Source of the DNA: Thiorhodovibrio litoralis
GTDB taxonomy: Bacteria; Pseudomonadota; Gammaproteobacteria; Chromatiales; Chromatiaceae
Direction of reading: 5' to 3'
NCBI RefSeq assembly: GCF_033954455.1
Contig: NZ_CP121473.1
Location: forward strand, 4,078,501-4,142,500
Length of the DNA stretch: 64,000 nucleotides
Position numbers and translations under genes: made by a program. This document shows, piece by piece, positions 43,583 through 61,274 of the stretch. The notes under the pieces were generated by a model. That model made no database searches and had not been told where the DNA came from. It saw only the letters and a program-made list of their open reading frames with translations. Positions within the stretch are counted from its first letter, which is position 1. Each line of letters begins with the position of its first letter.

Positions 43583-44188
43583 ATGCGCGCACTGTCGAGA
43601 CTGCCGATTTCCATCGAGCTGCGTCTGCGCGGTCTTGGTGACTCTCTCGAGGCGTTGCTCGGGTCCGCGAACGGGCGAGTCGAACTTGCGATAGGCGCCG
43701 GGCGGTTCAACAAGAAAGCCGCCAAGCTGCCCCTCGGCGCAATCATCGTGACACTGCTGGATGCAGTGAATCCGCTGAGTCAGCAGGGTAAGTTCCAAGA
43801 GCTGCAGTGTGCGGTATTGCAGTTCGACATTGCAGATGGCATTGCAACCAGCACCCGGGGGCTCGGGCTGCGAACCGCCGCGCTCAACGTGCTCGGCAGC
43901 GGGGCGCTCAACCTGCGCACCGAGCAGATCAGACTCCGCTTCAAGACCGCAAAACGCAAGGGCTTCGGATTCAACCTATTGGGGATCGCGGACAAGTTCA
44001 TTTATATCAACGGAACGGTTCGCAAGCCGCACGTCGCCGTCGATCCCGGTCAATTGTTGATCGACGGCGGCGCTGCCTGGGCCACAGGCGGCCTAAGCAT
44101 CCTGTTTGACCAGATCTTGACGCGGCTCACGGCAACCAACGACCCGTGCGAAACCGTCCTGCGGCGAGGGGAGAGGGGAAGCCGATAA
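43583..44188 (+). CDS. AsmA family C-terminal part downstream of the TAG codon
   Basis: 201 residues in the same frame as the preceding gene, separated only by TAG CGA. It has the standard AsmA C-terminal features: FDIADGIATSTRGLGLRT, LNVLGSGALNLRTEQIRLRF, a KGFGFNLLGIADKFIYINGT stretch and a final DPC. No Shine-Dalgarno sequence precedes the ATG at 43583, so it is probably expressed only by readthrough or not at all. Alternatives: a recent nonsense mutation, or a sequencing error. Confidence 0.7.
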   Translation: MRALSRLPISIELRLRGLGDSLEALLGSANGRVELAIGAGRFNKKAAKLPLGAIIVTLLDAVNPLSQQGKFQELQCAVLQFDIADGIATSTRGLGLRTAALNVLGSGALNLRTEQIRLRFKTAKRKGFGFNLLGIADKFIYINGTVRKPHVAVDPGQLLIDGGAAWATGGLSILFDQILTRLTATNDPCETVLRRGERGSR

Positions 44189-44434
44189 ACCTATCCATCA
44201 CGGACACAGCTCGGGCGGCGGAACTGATTATGTCCTTGACGAGGACCTCGGCAAAGGTCTTTGGCTGGGTCGTGGTGCCGATGAGCGCCCTGGGGTTGAC
44301 CCATCTGGTTGTCATCGCTAGGCTGATCTTTCGGCGGTGCGGAACACTCTGGACCCCGTGGGTTTTCTCCCCGTTCTAAGTTAGCCCTCCCACCGTTCTC
44401 GACTCGCGCCGAAGTTCATGTTCACGATGCCTTT

Positions 44435-45508
44435 ATGAAATATCGACTGAATCCAATTTGGCTATTGCTCGCGGCGCTTTGCATCCTGTCATTTCCTTCC
44501 ACCCTTTTCGCCTTCGATGCCGGAATGCCCAACCCGCCGGCTTCTCCCACCCAGGTTCAGGTCGGCATGTTTGTGGCCGACATCATCGACATGGACGAGG
44601 TCAACGAAACCTTTGAGGTCGAATTGATTCTGGTCGGAACCTGGCTGGACCCCCGCTTGGCATTCGACCCTGCTGAGGAAGGGACAAGCAAAAAGATCTT
44701 CCAGGGAATCTTCCAGTTCAACGAAGTCTACAGCGCTTGGTGGCCGCAGTTCCTCATTATCAATGAGATCGGCTCCGGCGATATGAATGCGGTCAAGATC
44801 GAAGTCTATCCGGATGGCAAGGTGCGCTACCTGGAGGAGCGCAACGTCACACTTGAAACACCGATGGATCTGCGAAAATTTCCTTTTGACGTGCAAACCC
44901 TCAAGGCGTTCTTCATCCCTTTCGGTGATAACAAGCAACAGGTTGAATTACAGGTCGATCAGCGCGTACTCGGAGCCACAGAGGAATACTCGGAAAAGGA
45001 ACATCACGTCCAGATCGCGGAATGGCGCCTGCAAAATGTCGATATCAAGTCCAGCACGACCGACTATCGTTATTTCGGTGACAAGGAAGAGGTTTCCCAG
45101 GTCGAGCTGGCCATTACCATGAAACGGAATTCAGCCAATATTATCTGGAAGGTCATCTTTCCGCTGATCATACTCGTCGCCATGATGTGGACCGTTTTCT
45201 GGCTCGATATCGACAGCCTCACCGATCGCCTCAATATCTCCTTCATCGGCATCCTCACCATCGTCGCTTACCAGTTTCTCATCGACGGCACCATGCCGCG
45301 CATCTCCTATTTCACCTTCACCGACGCTCTGCTGCTCTATTCGTTCGTCATCATGGCGGCGACCATTCTTCAGAGCCTGCTGGTGTTTGACTTGGCCAAA
45401 CGCGGAAAGACGGCGGCGGCCCATCGCGTCGATACCATCTCACGCTGGGCCTTTCCTGTCGTTTATAGCTTGACCCTCATTTGGAGCTATTACTACTACA
45501 TTCATTGA
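44435..45508 (+). CDS. Bacterial pentameric (Cys-loop-type) ligand-gated ion channel
   Basis: 357 residues. Signal peptide (about 1-26), a beta-sandwich extracellular domain with the conserved FPFD motif (149-152) and ERNVTLETPMDLRKF, and four TM helices: M1 about 237-256 (with Pro243), M2 about 262-283 (SLTDRLNISFIGILTIVAYQ), M3 about 295-318, M4 about 335-356. The M3-M4 loop is very short and no Cys-loop disulfide pair is present, as in GLIC/ELIC. The ligand or pH response and ion selectivity cannot be read from sequence. It is a single gene with its own likely promoter; neighbours give no clue. Confidence 0.9.
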   Translation: MKYRLNPIWLLLAALCILSFPSTLFAFDAGMPNPPASPTQVQVGMFVADIIDMDEVNETFEVELILVGTWLDPRLAFDPAEEGTSKKIFQGIFQFNEVYSAWWPQFLIINEIGSGDMNAVKIEVYPDGKVRYLEERNVTLETPMDLRKFPFDVQTLKAFFIPFGDNKQQVELQVDQRVLGATEEYSEKEHHVQIAEWRLQNVDIKSSTTDYRYFGDKEEVSQVELAITMKRNSANIIWKVIFPLIILVAMMWTVFWLDIDSLTDRLNISFIGILTIVAYQFLIDGTMPRISYFTFTDALLLYSFVIMAATILQSLLVFDLAKRGKTAAAHRVDTISRWAFPVVYSLTLIWSYYYYIH

Positions 45509-45532
45509 ACCGCATTGACCTGCATTGAATTG
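45503..45532. repeat. 10-bp tandem repeat at the channel gene 3' end
   Basis: CATTGAACCG, CATTGACCTG, CATTGAATTG in tandem, starting inside the last codons of the ion-channel gene. Confidence 0.8.
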
Positions 45533-45564
45533 GCAGCTCGGTAATCATCCGACCAAGCTCAATT

Positions 45565-45675
45565 ATGCAACTGCCGGCGCTGGCCTTCCACCTGTTGCCC
45601 TTTGAGGGATTGCAAGAATGGACCCCGAACTGGACCCTGGCCTATCTGATCTGGTGGCTTGTCTGGGGGACGTTC
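45565..45675 (+). pseudogene. BCCT-type transporter fragment
   Basis: Reading from ATG 45565, LPFEGLQEWTPNWTLAYLIW followed by WLVWGTFA resembles the conserved Trp-rich segment of betaine/carnitine/choline (BCCT) transporters. Similarity then stops and the frame passes into amidohydrolase sequence. Only about 37 codons remain, so it is a remnant. Family assignment rests on one motif region. Confidence 0.5.
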
Positions 45676-45874
45676 GCGCGCTTCATGCCGGCTGCCGAGG
45701 TGCTTGCCTGCGCGACCAGCGGCAATGCCGAGCTGCTCGCGCTTTCCGGACAGCGCAGCCCCTATCCGGGTCCCCTCGGCGTCGTCGCGGCGGGAGCGCA
45801 GGCTGATCTACTGGTCCTCGATGCTGATCCACTCACCGACATCGAGATCATTGGCGACCCCACGCGGATGAAGC
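45676..45874 (+). pseudogene. Amidohydrolase C-terminal remnant, part 1 (interrupted by insertion sequence)
   Basis: The frame encodes ATSGNAELLALSGQRSPYPG and AGAQADLLVLDADPLTDIE, the usual C-terminal region of metal-dependent amidohydrolases (imidazolonepropionase/prolidase-like). It is fused in frame to the BCCT fragment, lacks the metal-binding barrel, and is cut at 45874 by the IS copy. The last 41 bases of the gene continue at 48245. Confidence 0.7.
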
Positions 45875-45979
45875 CATACCATTACCCATATCTCCCCGCC
45901 CCAGCGTCGTCCGGGGCTGGACACAGCTCCCGAGTTCTGCTGAGATGCCCTTTCATCTTCAGCAAGGGGACGGGAGACC

Positions 45980-46861
45980 ATGGACCAAGCGATTCCAAGC
46001 CGTTTATGTGGGCGCCCTTTCAACGAGACCGACTTAGCGCGCATTCGCCAGGAGATCGCGCTGGCGCAGCCGCCGCTGCGCGCGGAGATCGCTCGGCGGG
46101 TGTGCCGCGCGCTGGAGTGGACCGATATCCAAGGCCGCCCCAAGCTCATGAGTGCCCGGGTGGGACTGCTGCGGTTGCATCGTGCCGGGCTCATTGTGCT
46201 GCCGCCACCGACCTGCGGCAATGGCAATGGGCGGCGCTTCGTCCCGCGCCCCGAGTCCCGGCCCGAACCGATCCCAGTGTCCGTCCCGCTGCGCGCGCTC
46301 AGCGGCTTGCGCCTGGCGCGCGTTGATGATCGAAGGGCCTCGCAATTATGGAACGGCCTGATCGAGCGCTACCACTACCTCGGCTACAGTCCCCTGCCTG
46401 GTGCGCAGCTGCGCTACCTGATCCAGTGGGATGGCGGTCTGCTCGGCGCCATCGGCTTTGGCGCGGCGGCCTGGAAAGTCGCTGCCCGCGACCGCTGGAT
46501 TGGCTGGACGCCCGCGCAGCGCCAAGCACACCTGGGACGGGTGCTCAACAACGCCCGCTTCCTCATCCTGCCCTGGGTGCAGGTCAAACACCTCGCCTCC
46601 AAGGTGCTGTCCTTGGCCGCGCGGCAAGTCAGTGTCGACTTTCCCGCCCGCTATGGCGAGCGTCTGGTGCTGCTGGAGACCTTTGTCGAGACCCCACGCT
46701 TTGCCGGGACCTGTTACCGTGCCGCCAACTGGCACGACTTGGGCGAAACCACCGGGCGCGGCAAGTGCGACCGCACCCATCGGGCCGCGCTGCCGCGCAA
46801 GGCGATCTATGTCTACCCGCTGGCGGCGGACTTCCGCGCCGCCCTGGGGGTGGTGGCATGA
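45980..46861 (+). CDS. DruA-like DUF4338 protein of the insertion sequence, copy A
   Basis: 293 residues, preceded by GGGAGA. The DUF4338 core contains YHYLGYSPLPGAQLRYL, NNARFLILPWVQVKHLASKV, ERLVLLETFVETPRFAGTCY and GRGKCDR, diagnostic of this family. DruA is the shared protein of Druantia anti-phage systems, but here the gene is part of an IS, coupled by ATGA overlap to the transposase, so a transposition role (accessory DNA-binding or target/immunity function) is at least as likely as defence. No other Druantia gene is nearby. Confidence 0.85.
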   Translation: MDQAIPSRLCGRPFNETDLARIRQEIALAQPPLRAEIARRVCRALEWTDIQGRPKLMSARVGLLRLHRAGLIVLPPPTCGNGNGRRFVPRPESRPEPIPVSVPLRALSGLRLARVDDRRASQLWNGLIERYHYLGYSPLPGAQLRYLIQWDGGLLGAIGFGAAAWKVAARDRWIGWTPAQRQAHLGRVLNNARFLILPWVQVKHLASKVLSLAARQVSVDFPARYGERLVLLETFVETPRFAGTCYRAANWHDLGETTGRGKCDRTHRAALPRKAIYVYPLAADFRAALGVVA

Positions 46862-48228
46862 TCGCGCTGGCCTCTGAACTGCAGGACATCTCTCTGGGCG
46901 ACAAGCGCCTGAATCATCGCGCCCAACAGGTGCTTGAAACCCTCGGCGCCAAGCCGACACAAAGTATTCCCGGGGCTTGCAACGGTTGGTATGAGACCCG
47001 GGCCGCCTATCGCTTTTTCGATCATCCCACGGTCACCGCCGAGCAGATCCTCGCACCCCATTTTGCTTGTACCGAAGAACGTCTGCGCGAGCATCCGCGG
47101 GTGCTGTGTATCCAAGATACCAGCGAGCTGGACTATACAACCAAAAAAGGCATTGTCGGTCTTGGGCCACTGAACTTTGAGAGCCGCTATGGGATGTACA
47201 TCCATCCCACCTTGGCGGTCACGCCCGAGCGCCTCGCGCTGGGGCTGCTGGATTTGCACACTTTTGTGCGCGAGCCCGGTAGCCTGGGCCAGGACAAAGA
47301 CTCGCGCCGCCCACTGGAGGAGAAAGAAAGCGTGCGCTGGGTCGATGGCTACGCGCGCGTCAATGCGCTGGCCGAGGAACTGAGCGACACGCGCTTGACC
47401 TATGTTGCCGATCGCGAGGGCGACATCTACGACCTGTTTGTTGAAGCGCCCATCCCCGAGAACAGCGCCGATTGGCTGGTACGGGTGCAGCATCGCGACC
47501 GCTGCTTGGCCGATGGCAGAAAGCTCAATGAGGCCCTGGACGCCGCTGCGGTGCTCACCGAGATCACCTTCGAGCGTCCCGCCACCAAGGGGGCCAAAGC
47601 ACGCCAGGTCAAGCAGGAGATCAAGGTGGTGCGCGTGACCCTGAAGGCACCCTGGCGCCCGGATCGCACCTTGCCCGATGTCACGGTCACGGCCTTGCTC
47701 GCCACCGAGGTCAATCCACCCGCCGGCGAGGAGCCACTCAACTGGCTGTTGCTGACCAATCTGGCGGTGCAGAGCGCCGAGGAGGCCATCGAGACGCTCT
47801 CCTGGTATCTTTGCAGGTGGCAAGTGGAGATTTTTTTCCGGATCTTAAAAAGTGGCTGCCGCATCGAGGAGCTGCAGCTCGAGACGCGCGAGCGCCTGGA
47901 GCCGGCGCTCGCTTTGTACATGATCATCGCGTGGCGGGTGCTGTACCTGACCATGCTCGGGCGCGAGTGCCCGGAGTTGCCTTGCGATGCGGTCTTTGCC
48001 GAGGAGGAATGGAAGGCGGTCTATCTGGTCACCCAGAAACAAGCGCCACCCGAGCAGCCGCCCTCGCTCGATACCATGGTGCGCATGGTCGCCTCCCTGG
48101 GCGGCTTTCTCAACCGCAAATCCGATGGGTTCCCGGGACCGAAGACGCTCTGGATTGGGTTGCAGCGCATCCCCGATTTTGTCATGGCGCTGGAGGCTTA
48201 CCGCAGCGTCAGGGATAGTTATGGGTAA
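46858..48228 (+). CDS. IS4-superfamily (Tn5/IS50-type) DDE transposase, copy A
   Basis: 456 residues from the ATG that overlaps the DruA-like stop. N-terminal Tn5-like domain (SLGDKRLNHRAQQVLETLG, CNGWYETRAAYRFFDHP). Catalytic triad placed as in Tn5: Asp87 (IQDTSELDY), Asp185 (VADREGDIYDLF), Glu324 within the exact Y-x2-R-x3-E-x6-K signature (Tyr317, Arg320, Glu324, Lys331). It appears intact and potentially active. Confidence 0.93.
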   Translation: MIALASELQDISLGDKRLNHRAQQVLETLGAKPTQSIPGACNGWYETRAAYRFFDHPTVTAEQILAPHFACTEERLREHPRVLCIQDTSELDYTTKKGIVGLGPLNFESRYGMYIHPTLAVTPERLALGLLDLHTFVREPGSLGQDKDSRRPLEEKESVRWVDGYARVNALAEELSDTRLTYVADREGDIYDLFVEAPIPENSADWLVRVQHRDRCLADGRKLNEALDAAAVLTEITFERPATKGAKARQVKQEIKVVRVTLKAPWRPDRTLPDVTVTALLATEVNPPAGEEPLNWLLLTNLAVQSAEEAIETLSWYLCRWQVEIFFRILKSGCRIEELQLETRERLEPALALYMIIAWRVLYLTMLGRECPELPCDAVFAEEEWKAVYLVTQKQAPPEQPPSLDTMVRMVASLGGFLNRKSDGFPGPKTLWIGLQRIPDFVMALEAYRSVRDSYG

Positions 48229-48244
48229 TGGTATGGGATGAAGC

Positions 48245-48285
48245 TCATCATGAAAGCCGGCGAAATCATCAAAGACGATGCGTAA
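48245..48285 (+). pseudogene. Amidohydrolase C-terminal remnant, part 2
   Basis: After removing the IS and one target duplication, the reading frame from 45874 continues TRMKLIMKAGEIIKDDA and stops at TAA 48283-48285, a normal amidohydrolase C-terminus (cf. the common pattern xVxKxGxIxK). This proves the exact IS insertion point. Confidence 0.8.
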
Positions 48286-49213
48286 ACTGCGCCGCTTCGA
48301 CACGGCTGAGGCGCGCTCGTTTCAGCATGTCTTTCGCCATGCGGAAGAAGGGATCGAGCTGCATTGGAACGCGCGCAACCATCGCAAAGGGCGTTCGCAC
48401 CCGCTGAAGACGGCCGATGGGGCCTATGCTGCGCGGGTCAGGTATCGCTTGTTTGCCCTTCAGTGGAGATCACTGTCCTGGTGGGTCGCAGCAGTCTTTA
48501 CCTTCGGCAGCCTTGTCTGGCTGATCAACGGTCTAGGGAGCGTTCTGCCGCTTTCCGATGCGCCTGTGATCAAGGCCGAGGTGCCCATTTGGACAGCGGT
48601 GCTCGGTGGTGGGATCTTTCTCATCGGCGCCTATCTTTCCTGGCTGGAGGTGCTGAACGCGCCGCGTTATGTGTTACTGTTCCGCGATGATGAGGCCGGG
48701 CATAGCCGCGCCCTGCACGCCGACAATCATCATCTTCGCTGGTTCGGGCTGCGACCGGCCAACTGGGGCTATTGGCTGAATCTGGCGCAGTTGCTTGGCG
48801 CGACCATCTTCTTCGTGCCCTGCGTGGTCGGCGCCCTGTTGGCGAAGCACCCTGCCATCAATGCCTTTGCCTGGTTCTGGCTGCCGCAGATGATTGGTGC
48901 CAGCTGGTTCATGATTGCAGCCTGGATGGCGATGCGTGAGGTGCAGCCAACCGCGCTAAGACCCGCCTGGAACTCGCTCGGCTGGTGGAGTGGCCTGTTC
49001 AATCTGCTGGGCGCCATCGGCTTTTTTCTCTGCGCCTGGTTCGGCTTCAAGTCCGATTTCGAGAACCCGATGCTCAGCAATGGTTCGACCTTTCTTGGCT
49101 CATGCTGCTTCCTGATCGCCAGTTATCTGATGCTGATCGAGATCATTAACCCCGAGGGTCCGGAAGGCCGACATCAGCCCCGATCCGCGCCAGGTGAGCC
49201 CTCTGGCGGATAG
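48278..49213 (+). CDS. Six-TM membrane protein of unknown function (YrhK-like pairs)
   Basis: 311 residues. A soluble N-terminus of about 65 residues, then six TM helices arranged as three similar two-helix pairs, each with Gly-rich turns (LINGLGSVLP...GGGIFLIGAYL; LLGATIFFVPC...MIGASWFMIAAW; NLLGAIGFFLCAW...FLGSCCFLIASYL). The pairs resemble YrhK-like two-TM units. The ATG lies inside the stop region of the amidohydrolase remnant, and the 3' end overlaps the convergent mechanosensitive channel gene by 40 bases. Function unknown. Confidence 0.65.
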   Translation: MRKLRRFDTAEARSFQHVFRHAEEGIELHWNARNHRKGRSHPLKTADGAYAARVRYRLFALQWRSLSWWVAAVFTFGSLVWLINGLGSVLPLSDAPVIKAEVPIWTAVLGGGIFLIGAYLSWLEVLNAPRYVLLFRDDEAGHSRALHADNHHLRWFGLRPANWGYWLNLAQLLGATIFFVPCVVGALLAKHPAINAFAWFWLPQMIGASWFMIAAWMAMREVQPTALRPAWNSLGWWSGLFNLLGAIGFFLCAWFGFKSDFENPMLSNGSTFLGSCCFLIASYLMLIEIINPEGPEGRHQPRSAPGEPSGG

Positions 49214-51051
49214 TCGAGCGTGTTGGTGATGCGCTTGCGGTAGGCTTCGTCCAGGTCCGGAAACGGCAACTCATGGGCCGCGGCCCACTCGCGCACGCGC
49301 TGCTCCGCCTCCGCGCCTGCGGTTGTGTCGAGCCCCCCGTCGCGGGCCATATAAAGGGTCTGCGCGGGCAGCGCAAAGCCTGTTCCGGCCTCCTTCACGA
49401 GCTTCATCAGCCGCAGCATGATGTCTTCTTGGACCGCGAGGAACTCCGCGTACACGCTGGTATCGACATAGGCGCGCAGATCAAGCGTCAGGGCGTTGTC
49501 GCAAAAGCCGAGAAAGCGCACCCGGATCGAGTCGGCGTCGGTGTAGGCGATCTTGGGATGACTGTGGAGTAGCTCGCGCAGCCTGGCAAGCAGGTAGCGT
49601 AATTGGTCGTCGCTGGTCTCGTAGCGCAGTGCAAAACGTTGCTGCAACAAGAACCTCTCGCAAGCACTGAGATTGACGATATTGCGCTCGGCCAGGTCAG
49701 CATTGGGGATGGTAATCACAGTTCGGTCGAACTGCCGGATCTTGGTCGAGCGCAGGCCGATGACCTCGATAGTGCCGACCGGATTCCAGCCCTGGCCGTG
49801 GCGCTCGTCGAAGCGGCAGAGGTCACCCACGCGGATCGGCCGGTCCGCAAACAGATTCAGCGCGCCGATGAAGTTTTCCAGCGTCGGGCGGGCTGCGAGC
49901 GCAATGGCCAAACCGCCGACCCCAGCGCCTGCCACCAGGCCGTAGACGGGGATGCCGAGGTCCTGCGCCGCAGTGAATAGCAGAACTAGGATAACCAATA
50001 GGGAAATGACCCGCGCGACCCACCGGACCAGGCTCGCATCCAGACTCCCGACGCTGATGAGCGGCGAGTCGACCAGCGCATCGGGGATCCACCGCGCTAG
50101 CAGCATCACCGTCCACACCAAGGCCAGGCCGCTGGCAAACTCGGCGAGGTAATCCGGCCAGGCGATCATGATGCCGGTGATCTGCACCTGATCATTGAGG
50201 AAGCCGCGCATCAGGTGCATGACGACCAGCACGGTCAGCGGCGTGATCAGGCGTCGCAGCAGGCTTCTGAGACTGGCATCCCAGGGCCGGCGGAGAACCC
50301 AACGCAGCACTGTCACGATGACGACCAAGGTCAGCGCCAGACTCGCCAGCAGCATGAACCATTTCCACACCACTTGCCCGGCGATGGGACGCTGCGCCCA
50401 CTCCGGAAGTTGTTCCATCCAGCGCGGCGGCAACATCCAACCGGAGAACCCGAGCGCGGTTGCCGTCAGGTCGTCGACGTCATTGAGGCGCGATGGGCGC
50501 ACATAGGGCAGCTCGCGCGCCTGCTCGGCATAGGTGCGAGCCGATTCGATCGTCTCCGGACTAAACAGGAACTCCCCGGCACGCCCCTCTTTTTCGACGC
50601 GCTGAATGACGATGCCCGTGCCCGGCAGGCGCCATCGCGCCGGTTGCTCCGGCGGGGTAACAGTGTTCGTGTCAGCCGCGACATCCGGGATCGCCTTAGC
50701 AGGCGGTAGCTCGACCCGCGCGATCACCTCCCAGAGCCAGATGATGGTCGCGGTGGCAATCTCATGCTGAGCCGCCGGTGGGACTCTGCTGAGGTCCATC
50801 AGATTCATGCCTTGATCCACCGCCAGCAGGAACGCCCGTTGGCTTCCTGCGCTCGGGGCCGCGCGATACTCGGCATAGCGCTTAGCGATCTCGTCGGTGA
50901 GTTCGAGAAAGCTGGTGAAGGTGGCCCGCGGCGAGGAGGTGTCGGGCGGACCCAGCATGCTGGCCGAAGCCCCCAAAGCACAGATCAGCAACAGCCATGC
51001 GGCAAGCCCCGCGCATACTGGCCTGGGTAGAATGATCACTTCAGGCTTCAT
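49174..51051 (-). CDS. Large MscS-family mechanosensitive channel
   Basis: 625 residues from the ATG at 51051 (AGGA eight bases upstream; 51060 is an alternative). Signal-like segment (VCAGLAAWLLLICALGASA), a periplasmic domain of about 200 residues, several TM helices, then the MscS pore helix and beta domain (GAGVGGLAIALAARPTLENF, DRPIRVGDLCRF, STKIRQFDRTVITIPNADL). C-terminal alpha/beta domain normal. Likely an osmotic release valve. In-frame codons upstream to 51189 lie in a tandem repeat and are rejected. Divergent from the Ntn hydrolase gene. Confidence 0.88.
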   Translation of the reverse strand: MKPEVIILPRPVCAGLAAWLLLICALGASASMLGPPDTSSPRATFTSFLELTDEIAKRYAEYRAAPSAGSQRAFLLAVDQGMNLMDLSRVPPAAQHEIATATIIWLWEVIARVELPPAKAIPDVAADTNTVTPPEQPARWRLPGTGIVIQRVEKEGRAGEFLFSPETIESARTYAEQARELPYVRPSRLNDVDDLTATALGFSGWMLPPRWMEQLPEWAQRPIAGQVVWKWFMLLASLALTLVVIVTVLRWVLRRPWDASLRSLLRRLITPLTVLVVMHLMRGFLNDQVQITGIMIAWPDYLAEFASGLALVWTVMLLARWIPDALVDSPLISVGSLDASLVRWVARVISLLVILVLLFTAAQDLGIPVYGLVAGAGVGGLAIALAARPTLENFIGALNLFADRPIRVGDLCRFDERHGQGWNPVGTIEVIGLRSTKIRQFDRTVITIPNADLAERNIVNLSACERFLLQQRFALRYETSDDQLRYLLARLRELLHSHPKIAYTDADSIRVRFLGFCDNALTLDLRAYVDTSVYAEFLAVQEDIMLRLMKLVKEAGTGFALPAQTLYMARDGGLDTTAGAEAEQRVREWAAAHELPFPDLDEAYRKRITNTLDYPPEGSPGADRG

Positions 51052-51363
51052 TCTTCGCATCCTAGTCGTCAGGTTTTCGCTCAATCCTGCAATTTCCGTT
51101 GTCTCGGGTTCGAGGGTAGTCTCGGATTCGAGGGTGATGCCGGCCTTTTCGGCCGACGCATTTTCGTTCGGCACCGCATCCGCGTACAATATCCACCCTG
51201 CTGATTAAGAATGCAAAGCGTCGCCTCAGGCTCTCCGCCTCGCATCCGGCCTTGCCCCCCAAATGAGGCGAACAGCTGCTGCGCCAGCTGCGTTGAGGCA
51301 TCGGTCAGATCTCGAGCGCGGAATCGGTGACACCACCGACATCGACACAGAAAGGAGATCTAA
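51052..51363. other. Divergent intergenic region with 18-bp duplication
   Basis: 312 bases between the mscS-type gene and the choloylglycine-hydrolase-like gene; must hold both promoters. It contains a tandem 18-bp duplication at 51101-51136. No other gene is recognised. Confidence 0.6.
51101..51136. repeat. 18-bp tandem duplication
   Basis: GTCTCGGGTTCGAGGGTA at 51101-51118 and GTCTCGGATTCGAGGGTG at 51119-51136 (two differences). Confidence 0.9.
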
Positions 51364-52467
51364 ATGTGCACATCGCTCGTCTATCGTGACGCAGCCGGAA
51401 AGGCCTATTTCGGGCGGACGCTTGAGCTCACGGTCGATCTGCCCTATCAGATCGCCTGGTTCCCCGCAGGCCACGAGATGCATTCGCAGATCGCCGATCA
51501 TCCGCCCCTGAGCGTCACCACCCGCTACGGTGTGCTGGCTATCACCATGCCGGCGCGCATCCCAACCAAGGAAGCTCCCATCGGCCCGGCCGATCTCAAG
51601 GTCTTGGAGGGGCTGAACGATCAAGGCCTGACCTTCAGTCTGCTGTCCTATCCGCTGGCAGCCGGGCCCGAGGCGCCGGTTCCGAGCGAGACGGCGGTGC
51701 TTTCTGCTTCGGATCTTGGGCTCTGGGCATTGGGCCAGTTCGGCTCCGTTGCTGAAGTGAAAGCCGCGCTCGCTACGCAACCGGTGATGCTGGAGGCTCT
51801 CGCCATGTTGGGTGGCGTGGTGTCGCCCTTCCATTATGTGGTCAACGACGCCACTGGCGCCTCCTTCGTCATCGAGTTCCACAAGGGCGAGATGTCGGTC
51901 TACGACAATCCCGTGCGGGTGATGACCAACGCGCCTCGCTTCGACTGGCATTTGACGAATCTCGACAACTACACCTTCCTCAGCAACCTTGATCGACCGA
52001 CCGCGAGCTTTGGCGACTACCAGGCAGTTCAGCCGGATTCGGGGGTCGCGACCTCGGGCTTGCCGGCCTCCAACACCTCGGTCGGGCGCTTCGTGCGCGC
52101 TGCGTTCTACGCGCAATACGCGGAGAAAGCCGACACGCCAGATAAGGCCGTGACGACGCTCGCTCATGTGATGAACAATTTTGACCGCCCGCGAGGGGTG
52201 ACGATCGATCTTCCCGAGGCCGGGAGCAGTCATCTCGAGGTGCAGGGGCTCGACGCGCCGGGCGCTGGTGCCGCCACCGAGTTCACCTGCTGGACGAGCC
52301 TCTCCGACCTGGACCGCAAGCTTTTCTTTCTGCGGTCTTACGACACCTGCAACTACACGCGCTTCGATCTCACGGCGCTCGCTGGATCAGACAAGCCGCT
52401 GGTGTCGTCGTTTAAGCGGTTTGGTGGCGATGCGGCAGATGGGACAGCGACCTTGAAGATGGGGTAA
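51364..52467 (+). CDS. Choloylglycine hydrolase family (Ntn) linear amide hydrolase
   Basis: 367 residues with a strong AAGGAGAT upstream. The mature nucleophile Cys2 follows the initiator Met (CTSLVYRD), with GRTLEL near residue 18 (catalytic Arg region), NDATGASFVIEFHKGEMSVYDNP, VMTNAPRFDWHL (conserved Asn) and TSVGRFVRAAF (conserved Arg). It belongs to peptidase family C59: bile-salt hydrolases, penicillin V acylases and N-acyl homoserine lactone acylases. No signal peptide. Substrate unknown; bile-salt cleavage is unlikely in a free-living host. It may form an operon with ytcA-mdtNOP, which starts five bases after its stop. Confidence 0.85.
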   Translation: MCTSLVYRDAAGKAYFGRTLELTVDLPYQIAWFPAGHEMHSQIADHPPLSVTTRYGVLAITMPARIPTKEAPIGPADLKVLEGLNDQGLTFSLLSYPLAAGPEAPVPSETAVLSASDLGLWALGQFGSVAEVKAALATQPVMLEALAMLGGVVSPFHYVVNDATGASFVIEFHKGEMSVYDNPVRVMTNAPRFDWHLTNLDNYTFLSNLDRPTASFGDYQAVQPDSGVATSGLPASNTSVGRFVRAAFYAQYAEKADTPDKAVTTLAHVMNNFDRPRGVTIDLPEAGSSHLEVQGLDAPGAGAATEFTCWTSLSDLDRKLFFLRSYDTCNYTRFDLTALAGSDKPLVSSFKRFGGDAADGTATLKMG

Positions 52468-52472
52468 AGCCC

Positions 52473-52757
52473 ATGCGCCTCGAAAGCACGGTCGTGAGGC
52501 GGATCAGCCTACTTGCACCCCTGTTGCTTGGGCTCCAAGGCTGCGAATTCGCGGCGAGCCCATCGCTACCCTTCTACGGTGCCTACTTTCCCTTCTGGCT
52601 GGTCTGCGCTGCCATTGGCGTTCTCGGCTCTGTGCTGGTCCGTGTCCTCTTGATACGTCTGGGGATCGACGAAGGCATGCCGTTGCGCACCCTCGTGTAT
52701 ATCGCGCTCGCCTGCCTGATCGCCTTTGCGATCGCGGCCCACGCATTTGGACGCTAG
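52473..52757 (+). CDS. ytcA: YtcA-like small lipoprotein
   Basis: 94 residues. Lipobox-like LLGLQGC (Cys about 24), then two TM helices (FWLVCAAIGVLGSVLVRVLL and LVYIALACLIAFAIAAHAF). The pattern FYGAYFPFWL is seen in YtcA, encoded directly upstream of mdtN in E. coli. Function unknown; context supports a role in the MdtNOP efflux system. Confidence 0.75.
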   Translation: MRLESTVVRRISLLAPLLLGLQGCEFAASPSLPFYGAYFPFWLVCAAIGVLGSVLVRVLLIRLGIDEGMPLRTLVYIALACLIAFAIAAHAFGR

Positions 52758-52760
52758 CGC

Positions 52761-53828
52761 ATGGCCAAGTCCGCCTATGCGCGAAAATACACGGTCGGCG
52801 GCATCATTATTGCCCTGGTGATCGTCATCGGCGCGGTCTTGGCAGGGCGCTTGTACGTTCACCGTGCCTCGAACAATCCCATGTCCGAGGATGCCGTGCT
52901 GACGGCGAGCCTGGTGAATGTCGCCGCCACCATCGCCGGGCGGGTCGTGACCATCGCGGTGACCGATAACCAGCGCGTCGCCGAGGGCGATCTGCTGTTT
53001 GCGCTCGATCCCGAGCCCTACAAGCTCGCTGTGGCGCAGGTCACGGCGGACCTGCGACTCGCCGAGGCGTCGCGCGACGCTCAGCGTCGGACCATCTCGG
53101 CCGAGCAGTCGAATGCCGTCGTTGCCTCCCAGCAGGTGGAGCGGGCCCGCGCCAACCTGGCGCTGGCCGAAGCGACGCTCGCACGACTCCTGCCCTTGGC
53201 GCCCAAGGGCTATGTGACGGCCCAACAGGTCGATGACGCTCGCACCGCCCGGGATGACGCGCAGACAAGCCTCGATCAAGCGCTGCGCCAGGCCGACGCT
53301 GCCGATGCCCTGGTCACCACGCTCGACGCCTCGGAGGCGCTGGTCGCCGCCCGGCAGGCGGCCCTGGCCATCGCCGAGCGGGAACTGGCGGCGACCGAAG
53401 TGCGTGCGCCCCATGACGGGCTGGTGGTCGGCCTTACCGTCTCGACCGGGGAGATCGTCGCGCCCGGTCAGTCGCTGTTCACGCTGATCGATACCGAGCA
53501 CTGGTATGCCTCGGCCACCTTCCCCGAGACCGAGCTTTCCCGCATCCTGATCGGCGACTGCGCGAGCGTCTGCGTGCTGGCCGATCGCTCGCGTCCCGTC
53601 GTCGGTCGGGTCGAGAGCATCGGTTGGGGCGTCATCTCTGAGGATTTGGTGAACCTGCCCCGCGGCGTCCCTTACGTTCCGAAGTCGCTCAAGTGGGTGC
53701 GCATCATCCAGCGCTTCCCAGTGCGGATCAGGCTTGAGAATCCACCTGCGAACCTGATGCGAGTGGGCGCGTCGGCGGTTGCGGTGGTGCGGCATGGCGA
53801 AGGTTGTGGAAGCGGCGCACCCGAGTGA
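52761..53828 (+). CDS. mdtN: HlyD/MdtN-type efflux periplasmic adaptor
   Basis: 355 residues. N-terminal TM anchor (about 12-33), lipoyl half-motifs (TIAGRVVTIAVTDNQRVAEGDLLFAL; EVRAPHDGLVVGL), an alpha-helical hairpin (about 90-200, AQQVDDARTARDDAQTSLDQ) and a beta-barrel with DRSRPVVGRVESIGWG. Fits membrane-fusion proteins that pair with FUSC-type pumps such as MdtO. Overlaps mdtO by 35 bases. Confidence 0.85.
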   Translation: MAKSAYARKYTVGGIIIALVIVIGAVLAGRLYVHRASNNPMSEDAVLTASLVNVAATIAGRVVTIAVTDNQRVAEGDLLFALDPEPYKLAVAQVTADLRLAEASRDAQRRTISAEQSNAVVASQQVERARANLALAEATLARLLPLAPKGYVTAQQVDDARTARDDAQTSLDQALRQADAADALVTTLDASEALVAARQAALAIAERELAATEVRAPHDGLVVGLTVSTGEIVAPGQSLFTLIDTEHWYASATFPETELSRILIGDCASVCVLADRSRPVVGRVESIGWGVISEDLVNLPRGVPYVPKSLKWVRIIQRFPVRIRLENPPANLMRVGASAVAVVRHGEGCGSGAPE

Positions 53829-55785
53829 CCTTGTCGGCGCGCCGCCGTCGCTCTGGCGCCAGGCGCTAGAGGACCTGCGGCCCTTCCCCGGCCGGGTCGG
53901 TATGACGTGGCGGGTTGCGCTGCTGTGCGCCCTGGTGACCGGCGCTGGCATGATGTTCGAGGTCCCCGAGGCGGCGATCAGTTGCTACCTGATCATCTTT
54001 TTGATGAAGCCCGACGCCGTGGTGAACATTGGCACCGGAATCGGCTTCTTGGTGCTGCTGCCTGGGCTCATCGCCTTTCTGGTCTGGGTGGTGAACCTGA
54101 CCAGTGGCTCGACGCTGCACATCATGGTGGCGATCGTCATCACCTCCTGCCTGTTGCTTTACCTCGGCGCGGCGACCCAACTCGGCGAGCAAGGCAGCGT
54201 GGCGGCGTTGATCATTGCCTTCGTGCTGACCTTGATCGTCAAGGCACCCTTCGGTGACGCGGCGACCTTCGCCTTGCGCGAGGCCTGGGCGATGGCCGCG
54301 CTGCCGATGATCTGGATGGTCGGCTTCAACTTGCTCCTTGGCTTTTCGCCCGTGATGCTGCTGCGCGACAAGCTTCGCGACAGGCTTGCCGCCGCCGCGC
54401 AGGCCTTGGAGACGGGTGATCGGGCAGCGTTGCGCGAATTGCTGCGTGAAGGGAACGCGCTCTTCGACCCGCAGGCGCTGGCGGCACGGCTGTTGGGGAT
54501 GGTTCCGCGCGCGGACGCACGGCAAATCGCGGCGGACGTGCGAGCCGGCTTTGCGCTGATGCTCGCGGTGTCGGCGCTGCCTGCGGATCTCGCCCCGGCG
54601 CGGCGCTGCGCGCTCGCGGAACAGATTCGCGCGGCCCATGACGCGCTCGGTAAGGGCGAGGCTCCGCCAGCGCCTCCCGCTGCCGCCTATCACCCGCCCG
54701 CAGACGCAGACACAGAAACATCCTCCGCCGAGCGCGCGGCATGGAGCGCGCTCCGCGTGCTCGCCGGCGCGCCTGAACCGGAGGTAGTGCCAGCACCGGC
54801 GATTCCGTTCGTCGCACCGGATGCGCTGCGCAATCCCGCCTACATCCGCTTTGCGCTCAAGACCACGGCGGCAGCGGTCATCTGCTTTCTCATCTATACG
54901 GCAATTGACTGGCAGGGCATCCATACGGCGATGATCACCTGCTATGTCGCCGCGCTCGGCACCACCGGAGAGACCGTGCACAAGCTCGCGTTGCGCATCA
55001 CCGGGTGCCTGATCGGGGCGGCCATCGGTGTTGCGGCGATCTTTTGGGTCATTCCTCATATCGATGGGATCGGTGCGCTGATGGTGCTGGTTTTCCTCGG
55101 CTGCCTGGTCGGCGCCTGGGTCTCGACTGGCCCCGAGCGCCTCTCCTATGCCGGTGTGCAGGTGGCGCTCGCGTTTCTGCTGACGGTGTTACAGGGCTTC
55201 GGCCCGAGTACCAGTCTGGATACGGCACAGGGCCGGATCTTTGGCATTTTGCTCGGCAATCTCGTCGTCTATCTGATCTTTACGCGCATCTGGCCGGCGC
55301 CCGTTGTCGACGAGGCCCGTGCCTTCTTCGCGCGTGCCCTCTCGGGGCTGGCGGGGATGGCTCGGCTTGCGCCCACCATGCGACCGAACGCCGTGAGCAG
55401 CGCTGCGGCGGTCGAATTGCTGGTCGGCAAGGGCGAGGAGGTGCTGCGCCTGCTGCCCTTCGAGCCCCGCGAGCTGAGACCGACGCCCGCAAGCGAGGCG
55501 GCGCTCCATGGTGCGTTCGCCGAGATCGAGGCGCTCAATCGCGCCATCTGGCTGGGCCGCGACGCGGACCTCGCGCAAACCGCTGAGCAACTCGACCTCC
55601 TCGCGGAACGGTTTCACGGACCCGGCGGAGAATCCGGGCTCCGCTCTGATCCCGATCCCGACGCTGGCCCCGGCCGCGGCCACGGCCCCGGTCCTTCGGC
55701 GTCCCCGGCTCGGCATGCCGGTTCAGTGTTTATCGCCGGCCCCTTCAGCCGCCAACTCGACCAACTCCAGGGAGCCGCGGAATGA
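53794..55785 (+). CDS. mdtO: FUSC-family MdtO-type efflux pump subunit
   Basis: 663 residues from the ATG at 53794. Two membrane blocks of five to six helices (about 35-185 and 355-500) separated by a soluble domain, the FUSC/aromatic-acid-exporter architecture. The N-terminal block has YLIIFLMKPDAVVNIGTGIG; the C-terminal block TAIDWQGIHTAMITCYVAAL. It exports toxic or aromatic compounds with MdtN and MdtP; the energy source is probably the proton gradient. The end overlaps mdtP by four bases. Confidence 0.85.
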   Translation: MAKVVEAAHPSDLVGAPPSLWRQALEDLRPFPGRVGMTWRVALLCALVTGAGMMFEVPEAAISCYLIIFLMKPDAVVNIGTGIGFLVLLPGLIAFLVWVVNLTSGSTLHIMVAIVITSCLLLYLGAATQLGEQGSVAALIIAFVLTLIVKAPFGDAATFALREAWAMAALPMIWMVGFNLLLGFSPVMLLRDKLRDRLAAAAQALETGDRAALRELLREGNALFDPQALAARLLGMVPRADARQIAADVRAGFALMLAVSALPADLAPARRCALAEQIRAAHDALGKGEAPPAPPAAAYHPPADADTETSSAERAAWSALRVLAGAPEPEVVPAPAIPFVAPDALRNPAYIRFALKTTAAAVICFLIYTAIDWQGIHTAMITCYVAALGTTGETVHKLALRITGCLIGAAIGVAAIFWVIPHIDGIGALMVLVFLGCLVGAWVSTGPERLSYAGVQVALAFLLTVLQGFGPSTSLDTAQGRIFGILLGNLVVYLIFTRIWPAPVVDEARAFFARALSGLAGMARLAPTMRPNAVSSAAAVELLVGKGEEVLRLLPFEPRELRPTPASEAALHGAFAEIEALNRAIWLGRDADLAQTAEQLDLLAERFHGPGGESGLRSDPDPDAGPGRGHGPGPSASPARHAGSVFIAGPFSRQLDQLQGAAE

Positions 55786-57362
55786 CGGATCGCCACGCTT
55801 TGTTTCACCGCTCCGGCGCTTCAGTTCTCGCTTTCGCTCTGGCTTTGACGCTGGCGCTGGTGCTGGCTCTGACGCTGGCTGGCTGCGCCTCCAACGCAGA
55901 GAACATGACCTCCGCTTCGCCCGACCAGCCCTGGACGCCTCGGGGCGACGAGGAGACAGACCTTTGGAGTCTTGCGCGCGCGGGTCAGTCAGCATCAGGG
56001 GCAGCGTCAGGGGACGGGCCTGCAAACTTCAGCATCCCCGCGGATGCAGCGCGCGCGCAGCTCACCCTGACCGAGGGAGTTGATCCGGACCGCACCTATC
56101 GCCTGCCTGAACTCATCGATCTCGCACAGCGCAGCAACCCGGCAACCCGCGCCGCCTGGCAACAGGCACGGCAGGCGGCGCTGGCGGTCGGCATGGTGGA
56201 GGCGACCTATCTGCCCGTCATTACCGCGAGTGTGATCGGCGGGTATCAAGATCTAACGACGCCGCTGCCGGACGTGCTGGGCGAAAGCCTCAGTTTCGAC
56301 ACCACCGAACAGGGTACCGCAGGAATTCTCGCGCTGCAGTGGCTGCTGTTTGACTTCGGCCAGCGCCAGGCACTCGCGACTGCGGCCAAACACACGGCGA
56401 TCGCGGCGAACATTCTCTTTAATGGCTCGCATCAAAAGCTGATCTTCGAGGTGTCACAGTCCTACTACCTTTATGGTGCCGCGATCCAGCGACGCGGCTT
56501 TGCCGAAACCGCGTTGCGCAACGCCGAAGCAGTCAGGACCGCCGTCGAAGCGCGCGAGGCCCAGGGTCTCGCCACCAGCGTGGAGACGGCACAGGCGCGC
56601 CAAGCCGTCGCACAGGCCGAATTACGTCGAGTCCAGGCGGACGGGGAGGAACGCGATGCCTACCAGAACCTGCTCGCCGCCGTGGGTGTGAATGCCGCGT
56701 TGAAGGTCGATGCGATGAGCGCGGCGCGGCGGCCGCTTCCTGCACCAGCCTCCGCACCGCTCGAGGCGACGATCCGACAGGCGCTGTCTCAGCGGCCCGA
56801 CGTCGCGGCGAGCTACGCGGCACTGCAAGCCAGCAAGGCCGGTATCAAGGCCGCGCAGGCCGGCTATCTGCCAAAGGTCTATGCCGGCGGCAACCTCGCC
56901 GCTGGCACGGGGAATTTCGATGTTTCCGGTCTGCCCACCATCGGTCAGCAGGGCTCAGGCAACGGTCTGCTGCTAGGGGTCACCGTGCCAATCTACGACG
57001 CCGGCCTGCGGGATGCTCGGGTCAGCGAAGCGAAGTCCCAGGCCAAGCTGGCCGCTGATGAGTTTCAACGAGTGCAAACCGCTGCGGTAACCGAAATCGT
57101 TGGAGCCCGCAATGCGCTGCGCACCGCGCTCGAATCGCACCGCGCCGCCACGGCGCTGGTCGGTGCCGCATCGACCACCTATGATGCCGCCTTGGCGGCT
57201 TACCGCAATGGCGTCGGCACGGTCGATGTGGCAACAGAGGCGGACACCGCGCTGCTCGATGCTCGCCAGGCGCAGGCAGAGGCGCATGCGGGCGCGCTAA
57301 TCGGCGCGGTGAACTTAGCCTTTGTCGTCGGCTCACTCACCTCGCGGGCAAGTTTGCCCTGA
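55782..57362 (+). CDS. mdtP: TolC-family outer membrane efflux lipoprotein (MdtP-type)
   Basis: 526 residues. Lipoprotein signal with lipobox TLAGC after an Ala-Leu-Thr repeat region (a short DNA repeat), then two OEP repeats typical of RND/FUSC outer-membrane factors (LAQRSNPATRAAWQQARQA; TIRQALSQRPDVAASYAALQ). It forms the trimeric outer-membrane channel of the complex. The ATGA overlap with mdtO shows translational coupling. Confidence 0.88.
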   Translation: MTDRHALFHRSGASVLAFALALTLALVLALTLAGCASNAENMTSASPDQPWTPRGDEETDLWSLARAGQSASGAASGDGPANFSIPADAARAQLTLTEGVDPDRTYRLPELIDLAQRSNPATRAAWQQARQAALAVGMVEATYLPVITASVIGGYQDLTTPLPDVLGESLSFDTTEQGTAGILALQWLLFDFGQRQALATAAKHTAIAANILFNGSHQKLIFEVSQSYYLYGAAIQRRGFAETALRNAEAVRTAVEAREAQGLATSVETAQARQAVAQAELRRVQADGEERDAYQNLLAAVGVNAALKVDAMSAARRPLPAPASAPLEATIRQALSQRPDVAASYAALQASKAGIKAAQAGYLPKVYAGGNLAAGTGNFDVSGLPTIGQQGSGNGLLLGVTVPIYDAGLRDARVSEAKSQAKLAADEFQRVQTAAVTEIVGARNALRTALESHRAATALVGAASTTYDAALAAYRNGVGTVDVATEADTALLDARQAQAEAHAGALIGAVNLAFVVGSLTSRASLP

Positions 57363-57414
57363 TGTGACGAGTTTTTCCGGCAATCGCCTAAGCGCCAAGC
57401 TTGAGGTCCATCGC

Positions 57415-58684: not shown

Positions 58685-58975
58685 GTGGTCCCCGTGCCCT
58701 GATGGAATGCGCGTACCTCGCCGTCCTCAATCAGGATCACAGTCTCAGCGTAAGCTGGCTTTGGAACCTTTCGGGTTTTCAGCAAGGCGGTCGTACCTTT
58801 CATGCCATCACAGTGAAATTCACTCTTCGCAACTCGTGGTGTGGAACTCGGTTATCGCCCGTTCAAGGGCCATACCATTACCCATATCTCCCCGCCCCAG
58901 CGTCGTCCGGGGCTGGACACAGCTCCCGAGTTCTGCTGAGATGCCCTTTCATCTTCAGCAAGGGGACGGGAGACC

Positions 58976-59857
58976 ATGGACCAAGCGATTCCAAGCCGTT
59001 TATGTGGGCGCCCTTTCAACGAGACCGACTTAGCGCGCATTCGCCAGGAGATCGCGCTGGCGCAGCCGCCGCTGCGCGCGGAGATCGCTCGGCGGGTGTG
59101 CCGCGCGCTGGAGTGGACCGATATCCAAGGCCGCCCCAAGCTCATGAGTGCCCGGGTGGGACTGCTGCGGTTGCATCGTGCCGGGCTCATTGTGCTGCCG
59201 CCACCGACCTGCGGCAATGGCAATGGGCGGCGCTTCGTCCCGCGCCCCGAGTCCCGGCCCGAACCGATCCCAGTGTCCGTCCCGCTGCGCGCGCTCAGCG
59301 GCTTGCGCCTGGCGCGCGTTGATGATCGAAGGGCCTCGCAATTATGGAACGGCCTGATCGAGCGCTACCACTACCTCGGCTACAGTCCCCTGCCTGGTGC
59401 GCAGCTGCGCTACCTGATCCAGTGGGATGGCGGTCTGCTCGGCGCCATCGGCTTTGGCGCGGCGGCCTGGAAAGTCGCTGCCCGCGACCGCTGGATTGGC
59501 TGGACGCCCGCGCAGCGCCAAGCACACCTGGGACGGGTGCTCAACAACGCCCGCTTCCTCATCCTGCCCTGGGTGCAGGTCAAACACCTCGCCTCCAAGG
59601 TGCTGTCCTTGGCCGCGCGGCAAGTCAGTGTCGACTTTCCCGCCCGCTATGGCGAGCGTCTGGTGCTGCTGGAGACCTTTGTCGAGACCCCACGCTTTGC
59701 CGGGACCTGTTACCGTGCCGCCAACTGGCACGACTTGGGCGAAACCACCGGGCGCGGCAAGTGCGACCGCACCCATCGGGCCGCGCTGCCGCGCAAGGCG
59801 ATCTATGTCTACCCGCTGGCGGCGGACTTCCGCGCCGCCCTGGGGGTGGTGGCATGA
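58976..59857 (+). CDS. DruA-like DUF4338 protein of the insertion sequence, copy B
   Basis: 293 residues, identical in predicted sequence to the copy A product at 45980, with the DUF4338 core motifs (NNARFLILPWVQVKHLASKV, LLETFVETPRFAGTCYRAAN). Overlaps its transposase by four bases. Confidence 0.85.
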   Translation: MDQAIPSRLCGRPFNETDLARIRQEIALAQPPLRAEIARRVCRALEWTDIQGRPKLMSARVGLLRLHRAGLIVLPPPTCGNGNGRRFVPRPESRPEPIPVSVPLRALSGLRLARVDDRRASQLWNGLIERYHYLGYSPLPGAQLRYLIQWDGGLLGAIGFGAAAWKVAARDRWIGWTPAQRQAHLGRVLNNARFLILPWVQVKHLASKVLSLAARQVSVDFPARYGERLVLLETFVETPRFAGTCYRAANWHDLGETTGRGKCDRTHRAALPRKAIYVYPLAADFRAALGVVA

Positions 59858-61224
59858 TCGCGCTGGCCTCTGAACTGCAGGACATCTCTCTGGGCGACAA
59901 GCGCCTGAATCATCGCGCCCAACAGGTGCTTGAAACCCTCGGCGCCAAGCCGACACAAAGTATTCCCGGGGCTTGCAACGGTTGGTATGAGACCCGGGCC
60001 GCCTATCGCTTTTTCGATCATCCCACGGTCACCGCCGAGCAGATCCTCGCACCCCATTTTGCTTGTACCGAAGAACGTCTGCGCGAGCATCCGCGGGTGC
60101 TGTGTATCCAAGATACCAGCGAGCTGGACTATACAACCAAAAAAGGCATTGTCGGTCTTGGGCCACTGAACTTTGAGAGCCGCTATGGGATGTACATCCA
60201 TCCCACCTTGGCGGTCACGCCCGAGCGCCTCGCGCTGGGGCTGCTGGATTTGCACACTTTTGTGCGCGAGCCCGGTAGCCTGGGCCAGGACAAAGACTCG
60301 CGCCGCCCACTGGAGGAGAAAGAAAGCGTGCGCTGGGTCGATGGCTACGCGCGCGTCAATGCGCTGGCCGAGGAACTGAGCGACACGCGCTTGACCTATG
60401 TTGCCGATCGCGAGGGCGACATCTACGACCTGTTTGTTGAAGCGCCCATCCCCGAGAACAGCGCCGATTGGCTGGTACGGGTGCAGCATCGCGACCGCTG
60501 CTTGGCCGATGGCAGAAAGCTCAATGAGGCCCTGGACGCCGCTGCGGTGCTCACCGAGATCACCTTCGAGCGTCCCGCCACCAAGGGGGCCAAAGCACGC
60601 CAGGTCAAGCAGGAGATCAAGGTGGTGCGCGTGACCCTGAAGGCACCCTGGCGCCCGGATCGCACCTTGCCCGATGTCACGGTCACGGCCTTGCTCGCCA
60701 CCGAGGTCAATCCACCCGCCGGCGAGGAGCCACTCAACTGGCTGTTGCTGACCAATCTGGCGGTGCAGAGCGCCGAGGAGGCCATCGAGACGCTCTCCTG
60801 GTATCTTTGCAGGTGGCAAGTGGAGATTTTTTTCCGGATCTTAAAAAGTGGCTGCCGCATCGAGGAGCTGCAGCTCGAGACGCGCGAGCGCCTGGAGCCG
60901 GCGCTCGCTTTGTACATGATCATCGCGTGGCGGGTGCTGTACCTGACCATGCTCGGGCGCGAGTGCCCGGAGTTGCCTTGCGATGCGGTCTTTGCCGAGG
61001 AGGAATGGAAGGCGGTCTATCTGGTCACCCAGAAACAAGCGCCACCCGAGCAGCCGCCCTCGCTCGATACCATGGTGCGCATGGTCGCCTCCCTGGGCGG
61101 CTTTCTCAACCGCAAATCCGATGGGTTCCCGGGACCGAAGACGCTCTGGATTGGGTTGCAGCGCATCCCCGATTTTGTCATGGCGCTGGAGGCTTACCGC
61201 AGCGTCAGGGATAGTTATGGGTAA
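59854..61224 (+). CDS. IS4-superfamily (Tn5/IS50-type) DDE transposase, copy B
   Basis: 456 residues, identical to copy A, with Asp87, Asp185 and Glu324 and the YREK signature intact. Confidence 0.93.
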   Translation: MIALASELQDISLGDKRLNHRAQQVLETLGAKPTQSIPGACNGWYETRAAYRFFDHPTVTAEQILAPHFACTEERLREHPRVLCIQDTSELDYTTKKGIVGLGPLNFESRYGMYIHPTLAVTPERLALGLLDLHTFVREPGSLGQDKDSRRPLEEKESVRWVDGYARVNALAEELSDTRLTYVADREGDIYDLFVEAPIPENSADWLVRVQHRDRCLADGRKLNEALDAAAVLTEITFERPATKGAKARQVKQEIKVVRVTLKAPWRPDRTLPDVTVTALLATEVNPPAGEEPLNWLLLTNLAVQSAEEAIETLSWYLCRWQVEIFFRILKSGCRIEELQLETRERLEPALALYMIIAWRVLYLTMLGRECPELPCDAVFAEEEWKAVYLVTQKQAPPEQPPSLDTMVRMVASLGGFLNRKSDGFPGPKTLWIGLQRIPDFVMALEAYRSVRDSYG

Positions 61225-61274
61225 TGGTATGTTCAAGGGCTGGTTAAACGTGATTGTTCGTCGCCGGTGTGGCG

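Follow-up and report, generated by a model that had tools for sequence, protein, structure and literature searches.

A DruA-domain gene paired with the transposase in several insertion sequence families is predicted to encode a Mom-like acyltransferase

A 64,000-bp stretch of the Thiorhodovibrio litoralis genome (contig NZ_CP121473.1, positions 4,078,501 to 4,142,500; referred to as the window) was analyzed by computation and found to carry two copies of an insertion sequence (IS) that encodes a DruA-like protein in addition to its transposase. Both copies, at 45875..48235 (copy 1) and 58871..61231 (copy 2) of the + strand, were 2361 bp long and identical base for base. Each was bounded by perfect 16-bp terminal inverted repeats of the sequence CATACCATTACCCATA, which lie in copy 1 at 45875..45890 (+ strand) and 48220..48235 (- strand). 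Each also had its own 9-bp target duplication, a feature without strand: GGATGAAGC, exactly repeated at 45866..45874 and 48236..48244, for copy 1, and TTCAAGGGC, at 58862..58870 and 61232..61240, for copy 2. The initial annotation of this DNA had described the copies and their ends in the same way and had put them 10 kb apart, which suits the 10.6 kb between them but not their starts, which are 13.0 kb apart.

Only two genes were supported between the inverted ends. The first, a druA-like gene of 293 amino acids (aa), occupies 45980..46861 (+) in copy 1 and, in identical form, 58976..59857 (+) in copy 2. The second encodes an IS4/IS50-type (Tn5-like) transposase of 456 aa and occupies 46858..48228 (+) and, again identical, 59854..61224 (+), where its start was inferred from that of copy 1. 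The stop codon of druA and the start codon of the transposase gene (tnp) share 4 bp, ATGA, at 46858..46861 (+), and similar overlaps were found in relatives. No DruE helicase or other Druantia gene was found between the ends, and no structural RNA reached the gathering threshold in window positions 44000-62500.

The transposase scored 421 bits against the IS4 transposase model NF033590 (cut-off 160) and contained the Pfam domains Tnp_DNA_bind, DDE_Tnp_1 and Dimer_Tnp_Tn5. It also has D87, D185 and Y317-R320-E324-K331, the last of which we take, in meaning and spacing, to be the Y-R-E-K-type motif of Tn5. Tn5-type transposase domains, inverted ends and a 9-bp duplication place this active-looking insertion sequence in the IS50 group of the IS4 family. 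The usual element of this group has one gene and is about 1.5 kb long. With two genes and 2361 bp the present element departs from that form, a departure that we do not regard as decisive for membership. It thus shares transposase domains, duplication length and inverted ends with the IS50 (Tn5) group of the IS4 family and differs from it in the overlapping upstream druA and in its length, its DruA-less sisters being 1.42-1.59 kb long.

Twenty uninterrupted copies were present in the single-contig 5.47-Mb genome. Seven of them were identical to the window copy, 12 had 1-9 single-nucleotide differences from it, every one in tnp and none in druA, and one (L020) was 91% identical. Exact 9-bp target duplications flanked 16 of the 20, while three had 10 bp and one had none, and both frames were open in all 20, L020 included. 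A twenty-first copy (L041, genome 4461000-4471000) was interrupted by a full copy nested in it, and the inner and outer copies each had an exact 9-bp duplication (GGACTATAC; ACCCTTACC). The recent activity, the Tn5-like transposase, the DruA-family first gene and the 4-bp overlap suggestive of translational coupling, all proposed in the initial annotation, were thereby borne out. Among the 19 near-identical copies all but one substitution fell within element positions 1673-1955, and in this region L020 matched the window copy almost perfectly for about 350 bp, perhaps as a result of gene conversion. Two decayed relatives in one genome of the same genus (L199 and L202) had a late stop in druA and shortened transposase frames.

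For five pairs with the window element, dN/dS was 0.18-0.34 for druA and 0.14-0.31 for tnp, a sixth pair being saturated. These results indicated that druA is under purifying selection similar to that on tnp. That druA is a neutral passenger, which the transposase happens to copy along, would fit the existence of sister elements that manage without DruA (see below), but the shared level of selection, the open frame in 20 of 20 copies and the partners from several IS families make this explanation very improbable.

The DruA-like protein matched PF14236 (DruA) with 165.8 bits against a cut-off of 27, and its AF2 model had a mean pLDDT of 89.6. The model consists of a compact N-terminal domain and a GNAT domain. 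The former (residues 1-81, 45980..46222, +) has three helices in the secondary structure of the model and could be aligned in 44 sequences. Its three helices suggest a DNA-binding-like domain. The latter (residues ~105-289, 46292..46846, +) has the conserved residues H132, Y133, R193, S207, E237 and Y246. When the model was aligned with solved structures, the best match was Mom of phage Mu, a methylcarbamoylase (PDB 8bv8), which led the runner-up by 2.8 Z units, and the remaining GNATs in the list were mainly protein, polyamine or aminoglycoside acetyltransferases. In a library of viral structures an uncharacterised Faunusvirus protein ranked first and phage Mom fourth. The sequence profiles of DruA and of its N-terminal domain gave no significant match among solved structures (best E 0.095 and 0.17, respectively). 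As judged from the model, DruA has a GNAT fold closest to that of Mom.

The likeness extends to the residues of Mom. S207 aligned with S124 of Mom, which is inactive when S124 is changed, and H132, Y133 and Y246 aligned with H58, Y59 and Y159. Mom-like residues were invariant over 59 DruA sequences. The essential Ser of Mom is accompanied by further residues that are invariant in both families; for residues besides S124, roles are ascribed partly on the basis of this invariance. At E<=0.01 the Pfam Mom family PF25680 matched 25 of the 59 relatives. The window protein itself stayed below the cut-off of that family, and we therefore describe it as working like Mom rather than as being Mom. It also differs from Mom in its extra N-terminal domain and in the neighbor that its gene overlaps, which is the transposase gene for druA and com, annotated as the translational regulator of mom, for mom. 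Both proteins belong to transposing elements. We consider it about an even chance that the element produces, from coupled genes, both its transposase and an acyltransferase of the Mom type that carries a small N-terminal domain and would acylate DNA bases to the benefit of the element. The initial annotation had overlooked the GNAT/Mom-like fold and, as described below, the involvement of further IS families, the fusions of DruA to transposases and the sister elements without DruA.

The pairing of DruA with transposases recurs within the genome. Three further PF14236 matches preceded a transposase of the ISAs1 type, which was checked with Pfam in one case, and two of these three elements were 2807 bp long with inverted ends and 9-bp duplications. 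Another three matches formed one set, whose one checked member (L047) was fused to the ISAs1-associated domain, and one PF14236 gene followed an IS66 transposase that is broken into two frames, in an element of 2713 bp with an 8-bp duplication. The relatives were then collected with an alignment of 16 DruA sequences, one genome per species. At least 584 were found and the best 80 were retained; as these were picked for their likeness to the window DruA, the IS type is favored in the sample. In 76 of these best 80 of at least 584, a seed-like transposase lay no more than 500 bp away on the strand of DruA, a count that falls to 75 with L117 dropped as circular: some of the transposase seeds had been drawn from the same loci, and nine such neighbors were confirmed with Pfam while L117, unconfirmed, was scored as a miss. 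The set was made non-redundant at less than 70% shared 4-mers, with L102, L114 and L168 excluded beforehand, which left 56 genome loci among 58. In 52 of the 56 a transposase was either fused to DruA or encoded on its strand at a distance of 500 bp or less, compared with 6 of 222 control positions in the same loci, for which only seed transposases were counted. The neighbors of DUF4338 genes are thus far from random, whereas random neighbors were the outcome that the initial annotation had named as refuting its idea.

The 52 partner transposases comprised 38 of IS66, 10 of IS4/IS50, one of the DDE_5 type, which we take to be linked to IS701, and three of other DDE_Tnp_1 types. Judged by their labels, the paired relatives, a good number of which are metagenome bins, include Acidobacteria, Planctomycetota, Firmicutes, Spirochaetaceae, Nitrospira, Verrucomicrobia and Proteobacteria. 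For the family Chromatiaceae, 60 stretches were selected manually among about 124 rows from other genomes, with repeat copies thinned and most weak partial hits omitted. Fifty of the 60 had a transposase and three lay at a contig end; family-level matches included Thiodictyon and Lamprocystis. In the wider phylum search the domain was present in 14 of 397 genomes, the window genome among them, and 15 further stretches were taken from outside the own genome. Of 72,556 plasmid records two matched at E<=1e-5, both from Thiodictyon. With the DruA alignment A2 as query, four loci were found in viral_contigs, two of them the ends of one contig; three of the four were beside an IS66 transposase and one was at a contig end.

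In some cases the two genes are fused. An open reading frame test found in-frame DruA-transposase fusions in 15 of the 50 family stretches with a transposase; two of the 15 involved IS66 and were outside the Pfam check. According to Pfam, L074, L075 and L161 encode a single chain of DruA followed by the Tn5 DNA-binding and dimerisation domains, L070 (cut) has DruA followed by the Tn5 DNA-binding and DDE domains, L084 has DruA followed by the ISAs1-associated and DDE domains, and L072 has DruA followed by another DDE_Tnp_1. NCBI names one fusion an 'ISAs1 family transposase' and one unfused protein a 'DUF4338 domain-containing protein'. In four ISAs1-type fusions (L226, L227, L047 and L243) the frame stops shortly past the associated domain, and a different frame encodes the DDE part. 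The two frames of L226 and L227 overlap briefly, and a programmed frameshift is possible.

A second explanation is that DruA is a protein acyltransferase, which modifies the partner transposase or a host factor and so controls transposition. Overlap and fusion would bring such an enzyme together with its substrate, and most other GNATs in the structure list act on proteins, polyamines or aminoglycosides. The nearest structure is nevertheless a DNA modifier by 2.8 Z units, its essential Ser is conserved, and no common protein substrate is obvious because the partners (IS66, IS4/IS50, ISAs1 and DDE_5 type) are unrelated. We regard this explanation as unlikely, though it is the foremost of the alternatives. 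Less probable still is that DruA serves as a non-enzymatic transposition factor, in which the N-terminal domain and the GNAT scaffold help to choose targets, to pair the ends or to act in cis. The compact helical domain and the repeated pairing and fusion with transposases of several IS families would suit this role; the invariance of the Mom-like residues over 59 sequences argues for catalysis instead, and sister elements without DruA also stand against it.

Inverted ends with exact duplications were sought around DruA and transposase in 117 elements and found in 44 (L147 was excluded, since its match belongs to another IS). Ends were found in 11 of 27 IS4/IS50 elements, nine of the 11 having a 9-bp duplication; in 28 of 70 IS66 elements, where they were of GTAA type and the duplication was 8 bp except in one read a base off; and in 2 of 6 unfused ISAs1 elements, with a 9-bp duplication. 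Three elements with other DDE_Tnp_1 transposases (L098, L129 and L211) had ends with duplications of 8 or 10 bp. By a rough probability, a match of ends plus duplication is not expected by chance. In an IS66 element of Accumulibacter (L135, 2716 bp), the 566-aa transposase and DruA were the sole frames above 150 aa on the strand. A 4-bp overlap joined 33 of 53 non-redundant pairs, in both gene orders (DruA first and transposase first), in a count that preferred whichever start codon came closest to giving a 4-bp overlap and was thus biased towards 4 bp. These results indicated that DruA and the transposase move as a unit.

The history of the pairing was examined with a tree of 120 DruA proteins, from which four short rows (L213, L221, L228 and L235) were skipped. 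Partner type required 25 changes on the tree, compared with a mean of 64 after shuffling. Rows at contig ends were scored as having no partner and L201, with two elements at its locus, carried a wrong partner label, so that the change counts are inflated; some joins are unsure owing to long branches. Seven IS4/IS50 rows with the transposase upstream formed a supported clade among the IS66-type rows, separate from a supported set of 18 rows that contains the window DruA. The partnership has therefore formed or re-formed on more than one occasion. Its loss seems to have occurred as well, and DruA-less rows were interspersed among DruA-bearing rows in the transposase tree. Nine stretches around DruA-less transposases gave no DruA in tblastn (0 of 9), and inverted ends with 9-bp duplications were present in four of them (L273, L275, L276 and L277, of which L276 and L277 share a genome); a relative with a 47% identical transposase was 1419-1420 bp long, also without DruA. 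These mobile-looking sisters rule out DruA as an obligatory transposase subunit. The suggestion in the initial annotation that DruA proteins may originate as transposition factors is supported insofar as DruA-family proteins are recurrent transposon partners. DruA is an accessory activity.

Several observations weigh against the proposal that DruA is a Mom-like, DNA-acylating partner of transposases. As to the enzyme, R193 was one alignment column away from R111 of Mom, the position of Mom D149 was taken by E237 and held E or D in only 53 of the 59 sequences, and the window protein scored 11.5 bits against PF25680, whose cut-off is 27.1. Moreover, GNAT enzymes act on many different substrates. 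Among the DruA proteins of ISAs1 partners Tyr133 was replaced by Pro in 7 of 10 and Asn250 by Gly in 8 of 10; therefore, some copies may have altered or lost their chemistry. As to the pairing, no transposase was found at L086, L087 and L163, and L102 ended at a contig end. Six of the 60 family stretches had no transposase (one of them, L185, of the defence type) and one was not IS-type. In the phylum sample only 3 of the 15 stretches had a transposase, seven were not IS-type, and in five none was found or the contig ended. The scan for ends yielded nothing in 72 of the 117 elements, including all seven ISAs1 fusions and the DDE_5 element. Finally, two sister elements, with transposase identities of 71 and 69% to the window element and lengths of 1590 and 1576 bp, had inverted ends and 9-bp duplications but no DruA, which makes DruA dispensable for transposition as such.

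The window protein has the PF14236 domain of Druantia systems and shares it with the Druantia and DndF-type defence proteins. Those proteins differ in length and score: against the DruA model of PADLOC the window protein reached 23.5 bits over 88 residues, while four defence-type proteins of 384-1264 aa reached 386-701 bits. In an alignment of four sequences, itself uncertain, the defence-type proteins were without the Mom-like His, Arg and Ser. One of the four, a 1230-aa DruA-SspF-like fusion, is encoded near 240 kb of the own genome (L051 7449-17227) in an operon with proteins of 447 and 1580 aa, likely a defence system related to DndF/SspF. A passage of PMC10853773 calls DUF4338 a GNAT domain and reports it as fused in DndF, and the 1230-aa fusion agrees with that statement. 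That the IS spreads druA as a cargo gene for defence or immunity would be in keeping with such settings of PF14236, including the 1230-aa protein, and with the 7 of 15 phylum-sample stretches that were not IS-type. The weak PADLOC score, the element's lack of any other defence or Druantia gene and the persistence of the transposase pairing across IS families and in fusions led us to reject it as the main reading, and it is improbable; the suggestion in the initial annotation of a defence function spread by the IS found no support as far as a Druantia-like defence is concerned. An own-genome IS-type DruA (L042) had no match at E<=1 in 50,697 phage records, which argues only against a phage-borne origin. 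The window DruA had no relative in viral_contigs, and a phage origin of DruA was also rejected.

The product of the second gene of this IS thus recurs as a partner of several transposase families, is under selection, resembles Mom and has a predicted enzymatic activity. Translation of druA most likely feeds translation of the overlapping transposase gene. The enzyme would then transfer an acyl group to DNA bases near the site where the transposase works, by analogy with Mom, which acylates adenine, and the resulting mark would presumably benefit the element. It may guard transposon DNA, when excised or freshly arrived, against restriction and the nucleases of repair, in the manner of Mom in Mu. 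Alternatively, it may tune end recognition and the host response; Dam methylation controls Tn5 and Tn10 and would be comparable. More broadly, and more tentatively than for the window element itself, simple ISs of several unrelated DDE families and several bacterial phyla may encode their own DNA hypermodification enzyme, in overlap with the transposase or fused to it, and write a mark during their life cycle, much as Mu does by means of Mom; the DruA domain of defence proteins would then be a relative of this enzyme.

ISs with passenger genes are a known kind, and the present elements resemble them in having a gene beyond the transposase. They differ in that one family recurs, overlapping or fused, in IS66, IS4/IS50, ISAs1 and other DDE elements. 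In a limited literature collection, where three papers name DUF4338, we found among the matches listed no description of DruA/DUF4338-transposase coupling or of transposon-encoded DNA modification of this kind. The common picture of an IS is a transposase flanked by two ends and not much else. If the prediction is true, a gene resembling DNA modifiers beside or inside transposases would add self-marking to the repertoire of minimal transposons, and would connect transposition, phage anti-restriction and a domain of defence systems. The function of the DruA domain also becomes testable, by expressing DruA and reading the bases. Furthermore, labeling PF14236 proteins as 'Druantia DruA' can misname transposon genes.

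The frame that copy 1 interrupts close to the C-terminal end (45565-45874 and 48245-48283) has a weak amidohydrolase match of 19.3 bits (cut-off 25) and is seemingly without its N-terminal part. Directly upstream of copy 1, window positions 44435-45508 encode a homologue of pentameric ligand-gated ion channels (Neur_chan_LBD, Neur_chan_memb), and other channels are encoded nearby, namely MscS at 49174-51189 and Ion_trans_2 at 57322-58116.
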